A DNA stretch of 40,241 nucleotides. Origin: Candidatus Staskawiczbacteria bacterium. GTDB taxonomy: Bacteria; Patescibacteriota; Minisyncoccia; Minisyncoccales; Staskawiczbacteraceae. Positions 22,061-29,791 of the stretch are shown piece by piece. The stretch is from positions 1-40,241 of the forward strand of contig CAILLM010000007.1 of the NCBI GenBank assembly GCA_903835075.1. Reading direction: 5' to 3'. The translations under genes were made by a program, and so were the position numbers. Each line of letters starts with the position of its first letter. The first letter of the stretch is position 1. The notes under the pieces were generated by a model. The model was not told where the DNA came from. It saw only the letters and a list, made by a program, of their open reading frames with translations, and searched no databases.

Positions 22061-22089
22061 TTGACTGGTTTTTAATTATAGAATAAAAT
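22061..22089 (+). promoter_or_regulatory. Sigma70-like promoter driving the 22096-22269 ncRNA candidate
   Basis: TTGACT (22061-22066), 17-bp spacer, TAAAAT (22084-22089). Confidence 0.7.
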
Positions 22090-22095
22090 AATTAG

Positions 22096-22269
22096 TTATG
22101 AGGGGGTGTAAGATTTATTCTTAAGGACATAATAACTTGTAGTGAAGGAGGCAAAAGTATATACTTGTTTTCATTGTCCGAAGACAGGCTCGAGAAACAA
22201 GCTAACGTCATTGCAAATTATTCACCTCCTCCATAAAGGCCGTCCCAATACAATTGGGGCGGTTTTTGT
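22096..22269 (+). ncRNA. Candidate structured ncRNA, rod-shaped, somewhat 6S-like; class unassigned
   Basis: Closing helix TTATG-AGGGGGTG / CACCTCCT-c-CATAA; AATAACTTGTAGTGA / TCATTGCAAATTATT; CTTGTTT/AAACAAG; apical TGTC-CGAA-GACA; ends in terminator. Confidence 0.7.
22240..22269 (+). terminator. Intrinsic terminator of ncRNA candidate
   Basis: CCGTCCCAAT-ACA-ATTGGGGCGG-TTTTT. Confidence 0.85.
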
Positions 22270-22340
22270 TTGAAAATTTTGTGCAGGATGTTAATATAGG
22301 GTTAAGGGTTGTATAAAGAATATATTATAATTATAAAAAT

Positions 22341-22655
22341 ATGAAGAAAACTAAAGTAAAAACTAAAGTAAAGGTTAAAGTTAAAAAGATATTGTCTACT
22401 GACAAAAAGGGAAAATTAATTGGCAGAATAACCCATTATTTTTCTAATATTGAAGTGGCGGTTATAAAATTAGCCTCTCCACTAAAAGTTGGAGAAAATA
22501 TCAGGGTTATTGGAGGGCAGGAAACTGATTTTGACCAAAAAGTAAAATCAATTCAAGTAGATCGCAAGGATGTAAAAATTGGCAAAAAGGGAGAATCTGT
22601 GGGTCTAAAAGTAGAAGAAAAAGTCCATGATGGTTATAAGGTATATAAAATTTAA
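22341..22655 (+). CDS. EF-Tu domain 2-like beta-barrel protein with Lys/Val-rich N-terminus
   Basis: GRITHYFSNIEVAVIKLASPLKVGENIRVIGG...VKSIQVDRKDVKIGKKGESVGLKV. Confidence 0.7.
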   Translation: MKKTKVKTKVKVKVKKILSTDKKGKLIGRITHYFSNIEVAVIKLASPLKVGENIRVIGGQETDFDQKVKSIQVDRKDVKIGKKGESVGLKVEEKVHDGYKVYKI

Positions 22656-22669
22656 TAAATATTTAAATA

Positions 22670-23644
22670 ATGGAAAACATAAAAGAAGCAATTGAAGATA
22701 AGGTTATTGATTGTATTAACACAAACGTAGAGGGCAGGTTGATAGTTTTTAAGCCTCAAAAAAAGGGTCAGGAAGATTATTTGGCTATAGAAAGAAGGGG
22801 TCAGTATAAAGAAGGTAAAATATATTTTCAAGTTAACAGTTTGGTCATTCCTGCTAAAAGTACTGTTTTTGTAAAAGATTTTTTTCAAGAAAGCTTTAAG
22901 GCTGATAAAAATTTTTATTTGCTTTTTGCTTATTTCGATGAAGTCAGGCAAAAGATAGATGATTATGTATGGTTGGTGCCTTCTTCGCAATTCATAGATA
23001 TAGCAGATGTTGTGAAGCCATCTGATGGAAAAAATCTATTAAGATTCGAATCTTCTTCTGATTTTAAGAATAAAAATAAATATTCAAAATTTTTAATTAA
23101 TATCAAAGACTTGGGGGATATAATTTTGAGCTCGCTTAAAGAAAAAAAACCCTTAAGTTTTAAGGCAGTTGATTTTGAGGGAAAATCAACAATAAACTTA
23201 GAAAATTTATTAGATTTTTTGTGCACTGCTCGTCAAAGTATTTATGCATCAGATTCAATGGGCATTGATAACCCAAGGTTATTAGAATCAACGCAATTGG
23301 AATTTCAAAAGGCAAATTATTTTTATCGCGATATATTTTTTGAGGGTAATAAAAAAATTATTGGGCAAGAAGTTATTTATTTAGACTCAAAGCCAGTTTG
23401 GGGCATGAATTATATTGGAGATAAAATAAAAAAAACAGAAGTGAGTTTTTTAAAAGAATCGTTGTTTCACCTGGTAAAAGATTGTCGTTTGGGAAAAAAC
23501 TGCGAATATGAAAAGAGAGAATATAAATATCAAGACCAAGGAGCGGGTGACGTTGACGAATTTTCTGGACAAGAAAAAATCTTTTTAGATGGCAAAAGTA
23601 TATATAAACTAGAATATCAAGGTGGATTAATATCAGATAAATAA
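22670..23644 (+). CDS. Hypothetical protein with DUF5680-like C-terminus
   Basis: EVIYLDSKPVWGMNYIGDKI, and a related C-terminal stretch EKIFLDGKSIYKLEYQGG. Confidence 0.55.
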   Translation: MENIKEAIEDKVIDCINTNVEGRLIVFKPQKKGQEDYLAIERRGQYKEGKIYFQVNSLVIPAKSTVFVKDFFQESFKADKNFYLLFAYFDEVRQKIDDYVWLVPSSQFIDIADVVKPSDGKNLLRFESSSDFKNKNKYSKFLINIKDLGDIILSSLKEKKPLSFKAVDFEGKSTINLENLLDFLCTARQSIYASDSMGIDNPRLLESTQLEFQKANYFYRDIFFEGNKKIIGQEVIYLDSKPVWGMNYIGDKIKKTEVSFLKESLFHLVKDCRLGKNCEYEKREYKYQDQGAGDVDEFSGQEKIFLDGKSIYKLEYQGGLISDK

Positions 23645-29432: not shown

Positions 29433-29446
29433 TGTATTTTTGTTAG

Positions 29447-29791
29447 TGGAGATGGCGGTGTTGAAACCGCGTCTGAAAAGTTTTTAAAAGCAATTCTACA
29501 AGTTTAGTCAGTTTTGATGTTCGAGTATTAAATAAATAACTAACAAAATTTTTAATACCTTATCTCCTTAGTTTCGATAATTAGCCAGAGATTCTAATTA
29601 TCTATCCTGATATATAACACCTTCATCCACCTATCAGGAGTGGATGGGGAAGATGCCGCATTAAGCGTATGCTAACGCAGGTTGCTTATTAAATAAATTA
29701 GCAATTATGATTTTTCTTAAAAGATTAATGAGCCTTAAGAAAGCTCAACTTGCCTTACTTGAAAGAACTAGTCATCGAAACAATCATCCCC
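29447..29791 (-). ncRNA. ssrA: Transfer-messenger RNA (tmRNA)
   Basis: Minus strand 5' GGGGATGATTGTTTCGATGAC, 3' AAACTGACTAAACTTGTAG...CAGACGCGGTTTCAACACCGCCATCTCCA; acceptor pairs GGGGATG/CATCTCC; tag ORF GCT...GCGTTAGCATACGCTTAA; adjacent to smpB. Confidence 0.93.
29661..29702 (-). other. tmRNA proteolysis-tag reading frame (candidate ANLFNKQPALAYA-stop)
   Basis: GCT AAT TTA TTT AAT AAG CAA CCT GCG TTA GCA TAC GCT TAA within ssrA; exact resume codon inferred. Confidence 0.7.

Follow-up and report, generated by a model that had tools for sequence, protein, structure and literature searches.

The window, the whole stretch of 40,241 nucleotides that was analysed, constitutes contig C7 of a genome of 0.79 Mb. 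It contains a segment that had been proposed to encode a structured non-coding RNA and that is flanked by a NIF3-like gene on one side and a small EF-Tu-domain-2-like gene (dn104) on the other. The following features frame this segment:

22061-22089, + strand: sigma-70-type promoter of the RNA, TTGACT-N17-TAAAAT (from the sequence and the -35/-10 statistics of the homologues)
22096-22269, + strand: whole predicted transcript, ∼170 nt (from the promoter and terminator positions; conserved in 81 genomes of the order)
22237-22269, + strand: intrinsic terminator (predicted fold; present in 79 of 81 homologues)
22341-22655, + strand: dn104, gene of a small EF-Tu-domain-2-like protein and usual downstream neighbour (from a domain match and neighbour comparison)

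Both the promoter and the strong terminator named in the original prediction are present at these positions. In the window, TTGACT (22061-22066) and TAAAAT (22084-22089) are separated by a 17 nt spacer. The promoter lies just 5' of P1, the helix that closes the molecule; among the homologues, 70 of 81 carry a perfect TTGACA as -35 element, and the -10 element most often ends 6-9 nt ahead of P1 (mode 7 nt, 81 loci). A promoter score of at least 10 was reached at 71 of the 81 homologous loci, compared to 1 in shuffles, and the terminator found in 79 of 81 homologues (2 of 81 when shuffled) lies nearly always immediately 3' of P1. The RNA segment of the window folds with a minimum free energy of -62.3 kcal/mol compared to -38.4 ± 3.9 kcal/mol for shuffled sequences (z -6.1, 0 of 200 as stable). 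This stability, together with conservation and covariation far beyond chance, upholds the proposal of a structured non-coding RNA. A conserved ORF across the region had been named as one of the observations that would speak against it. The longest ORFs within the RNA are short and vary between genomes, and match lengths are spread evenly over residues modulo 3; a protein-coding alternative was therefore rejected. Since promoter and terminator are conserved and the ORFs are short and dissimilar, the DNA points to a discrete transcript of ∼170 nt. A stand-alone structured non-coding RNA gene with its own promoter and terminator at 22096-22269 is thus strongly supported by sequence comparison.

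Conserved fold and pseudoknot

Compensatory changes in P1, P1.1, P2, and P3 were present in the first alignment, which comprised 16 sequences. Covariation in relatives, a check that the original prediction had asked for, was found with 71 sequences as double-sided changes in 41 of 43 pairs, with 376 such cells compared to 98 in shuffled alignments; the alignments were tool-built and fitted to the helices of the model, so that these helix counts are biased in that direction, while the two sites A and B discussed below are unpaired in both models and hence unbiased. Sliding the partners by 1 to 3 columns abolished the covariation, for which the whole structure scored 0.428. The elements of the fold are:

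22100-22108, + strand: P1 5' strand, pairing with 22223-22231 (covariation; 91% of cells paired)
22110-22122, + strand: P1.1 hairpin, 22110-22113 with 22119-22122 (98.6% paired; compensatory changes in all 4 pairs)
22125-22129, + strand: pseudoknot strand GGACA, pairing with 22175-22179 (compensated variants)
22132-22145, + strand: P2 5' strand, pairing with 22208-22221 (compensatory changes in every pair)
22147-22152, + strand: GA-rich internal loop (GGAG) and P2b 5' strand, 22150-22152 pairing with 22201-22203 (covariation analysis)
22165-22187, + strand: P3 hairpin, 22165-22172 with 22180-22187, whose loop holds a pseudoknot strand (compensatory changes in all 8 pairs)
22175-22179, + strand: pseudoknot strand UGUCC in the P3 loop (compensated variants)
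22201-22221, + strand: P2b and P2 3' strands (covariation)
22223-22231, + strand: P1 3' strand (covariation)

P2 and P2b form an arm that is capped by the hairpin P3. Since the P3 loop covaries with the strand after P1.1, both are assigned to a pseudoknot, which is GGACA/UGUCC in most members and occurs in five compensated variants (GGCAGA/UCUGCC, GGCC/GGCC, GGGC/GCCC, GGAUA/UAUCC, and GGCAA/UUGCC). In one locus (L035:1349-1643, genome G008) P1.1 carries an insertion of ∼160 nt, and smaller insertions occur in L031 and L043; the loop of P1.1 therefore tolerates large extensions.

The helices proposed from the window sequence were retained to different extents. Of the 13-bp closing helix with one bulge, which consists of 9 bp (22100-22108/22223-22231) and a further 4 bp (22096-22099/22233-22236) across a bulged C22232, conservation is limited to the 9-bp part. 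The long inner helix corresponds to P2 (22132-22145/22208-22221), conserved and covarying. In contrast, the CTTGTTT/AAACAAG pairing is an alternative in the window sequence only and is incompatible with the fold that the relatives conserve. The apical TGTC-CGAA-GACA hairpin is likewise a window-only alternative; the conserved apical hairpin is P3, with its loop TGTCC (22175-22179) engaged in the pseudoknot. An anti-SD-like motif, CACCTCCT, had been noted in the closing helix, where it is not conserved and most relatives have nnCCCCCTC. A function of this motif or of the SD-like AAGGAGG was rejected, as neither is conserved through the own family. The GGAG internal loop is common in distant relatives and variable inside the own family.

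The original prediction had further described a rod with an asymmetric bubble, possibly 6S-like. A 6S RNA, or a functional analogue of it, would bind RNA polymerase as an open-promoter mimic and be released by product-RNA synthesis. Length, single copy, own promoter and terminator, and the long closing rod would suit such an RNA, as would the result of an RF00013 search, which detected no 6S gene in 23 related genomes, with controls ringing in 5 of 14. However, neither RF00013 nor any other Rfam model matches the RNA at gathering score, and the bubble is not single-stranded: P1.1 and the pseudoknot strand, both covarying, fill the centre. As the RNA is also absent from many nearly complete relatives, we regard a 6S identity as very unlikely.

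An all-Rfam 15 scan of the window and 15 homologous loci gave no match at gathering score and nothing relevant at relaxed thresholds. The best sub-threshold match, L10_leader (25.5 compared to 44 bits), is largely driven by the terminator. A disguised RNase P RNA was dismissed because RNase P RNA is found elsewhere in the genome. For SRP RNA, the search of this genome (G000) with RF00169 was negative even at an E-value of 1, with controls ringing in 13 of 14 genomes; the SRP RNA might be too divergent here or belong to a different type. The RNA described here is unlikely to be the essential SRP RNA in disguise, since it is absent from many relatives. In the same window a tmRNA gene (RF00023, 109.8 bits) lies at 29444-29791 on the minus strand, which was not reported by ARAGORN.

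Occurrence and genomic neighbourhood

The initial DNA search of 58 genomes gave matches in 19, of which 16 (own genome included) were clear copies, most with 69-85% identity. The first covariance model detected the RNA in 22 of the 36 family genomes and in 72 of the 246 genomes of the order; the second, built from the 71 sequences, found it in 81 of 247 genomes of the order, always with one match per genome. This order comprises Staskawiczbacteria, Nealsonbacteria, Wildermuthbacteria, and other Parcubacteria bins, and contigs of the closest relatives are named Candidatus Staskawiczbacteria. Evenly drawn samples contained the RNA in 13 of 383 genomes of the class (12 of them inside the order) and in 2 of 379 genomes of the phylum (both inside the order), and beyond the order these samples yielded no RNA except in one Tagabacteria genome. 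This sole outside match, from a sister order of three genomes whose other two gave none, brings the total to 82 homologues.

Many sister genomes that are nearly complete do not have the RNA; most of the surveyed genomes are metagenome bins. A filter-free search with the full model at 29 loci upstream of dn104, in genomes without a match, returned zero diverged copies. Due to this patchy presence even within the family, the RNA appears to be dispensable on evolutionary time scales. Literature searches returned no description of this RNA, and those on small RNAs of Patescibacteria returned nothing. It is a previously undescribed small non-coding RNA of a large group of tiny uncultured bacteria and would represent a lineage-specific structured RNA family in Patescibacteria.

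The usual gene order is tRNA-Arg, RNA, a SLOG gene in some cases, and dn104; the RNA is also encountered without these protein genes. Most distant members lie 3' of a tRNA-Arg gene (usually with CCG anticodon) and 5' of dn104, often with a SLOG-family gene in between. A cis-regulatory leader of the dn104 operon, either riboswitch or attenuator, would account for this arrangement, in which dn104, or the SLOG gene and dn104, follows in nearly all homologues with a terminator between RNA and dn104. Against a leader, the terminator lies outside the conserved fold (outside P1 in 79 of 81), and no alternation between the two was found. Moreover, a promoter-like sequence follows the terminator at 22270-22297 in the window and in many relatives, weakly above chance (44 of 81 compared to 22 in shuffles), and dn104 is probably a separate transcription unit that is not part of the RNA. 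The association is not constant either. The RNA occurs without nearby dn104 in genomes G106, G082, G105, and G140, and no dn104 is near the RNA loci L049, L175, L176, L183, and L184. Several other genomes keep dn104 and have no RNA. In L187 and L190 the tRNA-Arg gene is directly followed by the dn104 promoter region, a clean absence of the RNA, and genomes G006, G002, G013, and G025 have neither. We therefore consider a leader function very unlikely. Since RNA and dn104 each occur alone, the RNA is linked to its neighbours by position without depending on them, and an action in trans is most likely.

Two observations concern dn104 and its surroundings. Just after its -10 element, a conserved AAAGGTC(G/A) is found in L002, L003, L004, L187, L188, L190, L191, L195, and L199; this possible regulatory or start-site motif is present in many relatives, whether or not they have the RNA, and altered in the window (GGGTTAAGGGTTGTATAAAG, around 22300-22335). 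Adjoining dn104, a gene at 22670-23644 encodes 324 amino acids with a C-terminal DUF5680, the remainder being without Pfam or NCBIfam match.

Self-complementary sites A and B

Two self-complementary sites flank P3, site A between P2b and P3, and site B after P3:

22155-22166, + strand: site A, self-complementary AAGUAUAUACUU, proposed homodimer contact (pairing, covariation, palindrome counts, and duplex energy)
22189-22194, + strand: site B, self-complementary CUCGAG, second proposed homodimer contact (same kinds of evidence)

Site A is GUAUAUAC in the window and GCAGCUGC, GGAUAUCC, GGAAUUCC, GACGUC, GGUACC, GCGUACGC, or others elsewhere. A palindromic hexamer is present at site A in 70 of 81 members (12.1 expected; 25 distinct sequences) and at site B in 58 of 81 (12.9 expected; 23 distinct sequences). 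On a rough tree built from the RNA itself, these sequences changed at least 35 times at site A and at least 38 times at site B. Four nested pairs at fixed columns of site A are standard in 88.9% of cases compared to 58.9% after shuffling, with a covariation score of 0.777, well above the 0.428 of the whole structure and the 0.04-0.09 of slid controls; site B scores 0.407. When all centres along the RNA were scanned, only A and B stood out with most cells paired, with z of 17 and 8.7, respectively, and of 22 and 9.8 when the larger set was used. Mean self-duplex energies are -11.9 kcal/mol for A and -8.6 kcal/mol for B, compared to -4.6 and -4.1 kcal/mol, and reach -11.4 and -9.9 kcal/mol in the window.

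The pattern has exceptions. In 23 of the 81 members site B lacks a palindromic hexamer, and the centre of site A is odd or mismatched in a few (L027, L069, L180, and L184). Five members of one genus (L055, L061, L070, L075, and L080) lack site B and possess a 12-nt site A, for example AAAGGUACCUUU or AAAGGCGCCUUU; here a single contact might have taken the place of two.

The innermost pair of site A consists of adjacent columns (UA 32, GC 20, CG 7). A role of the palindromes as cis hairpins only was rejected, as the innermost bases covary though they are neighbours. Since adjacent bases cannot pair within one chain, their covariation argues for pairing between two copies of the RNA, and homodimerisation by symmetric self-pairing is the simplest reading of the palindromes.

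Alternatively, the palindromes could be bound by a dimeric protein at the level of the DNA, the RNA being monomeric. Such proteins usually recognise sites of this shape; however, ∼25 different hexamers at a fixed place are hard to fit to the specificity of one protein, and the sites sit precisely at both flanks of P3 in the RNA fold, which makes this explanation very unlikely. We judge it equally improbable that the RNA is an antisense small RNA whose sites A and B serve as seeds for pairing to mRNAs. A stand-alone, sRNA-like gene with variable unpaired sites would be in line with such a function, but seed pairing does not predict self-complementarity, and the compact consensus fold is without a conserved single-stranded seed.

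Proposed homodimer and comparison with known RNAs

Taken together, the RNA is probably a single-copy, stand-alone, trans-acting RNA of ∼170 nt that folds into a pseudoknotted structure and pairs with itself through sites A and B. According to this proposal, which rests on sequence comparison, a sigma-70 promoter of its own would drive transcription from a start at P1 or a few nt ahead of it, and the transcript would end at the intrinsic terminator. As covariation shows, the RNA folds into P1, P1.1, P2/P2b, and P3, and the P3 loop forms the pseudoknot with the strand that follows P1.1. Two copies would then be joined in a symmetric homodimer by the palindromes of site A and, in the majority of lineages, of site B. 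If A and B bind different partners, a chain is possible instead. As the most likely role of the dimer, we tentatively propose a two-fold symmetric scaffold for a protein or another partner. One candidate partner is the small protein encoded by dn104, which is related to a domain of translation factors; the RNA persists without dn104 as well.

We consider it likely that this RNA defines a new class, in which small chromosomal RNAs would homodimerise via two fast-drifting palindromic contacts, each lineage having its own self-recognition sequence. If true, the RNA of each species would pair with its own copies and would not recognise the RNAs of other species. Functional RNA homo-oligomers are seldom documented, and the natural bacterial ones recently resolved are large (PMC12286853, PMC7357161). 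The RNA described here has 82 divergent homologues and a structured part of ∼130 nt; it would offer a small, easily handled system in which evolution itself provides evidence for quaternary structure.

With 6S RNA (RF00013) it shares the size class, own promoter and terminator, and a long closing helix; it differs by lacking a model match and an open central bubble, by its pseudoknot and two self-complementary sites, and by its patchy presence. The palindromic loop contacts of 4-6 nt in the HIV-1 DIS and the hatchet ribozyme can form kissing or strand-swapped dimers (PMC7357161), but these belong to a viral genome or a ribozyme with an unrelated fold. GOLLD and ROOL are homo-oligomers partly held by kissing contacts, and ROOL often lies near tRNA islands (PMC12286853). 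In contrast to the RNA described here, which is small, single copy, and in a bacterial chromosomal context, they are multimeric cages of much larger size, with ROOL encoded in phages or prophages (PMC12286853). The window and its homologues match neither of them, nor OLE, at the Rfam 15 gathering score. Covariance at immediately adjacent nucleotides supported symmetric kissing loops in both the OLE dimer and the GOLLD cage (PMC12286853). Like OLE, a bacterial structured RNA with a symmetric self-pairing loop, the present RNA combines a self-complementary contact with covariation at positions unable to pair in cis, here deduced from sequence. Whereas OLE comprises 577 nt in Clostridium acetobutylicum and occurs mainly in extremophilic bacteria (PMC12286853), this RNA presents two palindromic sites within ∼130 nt of structure.
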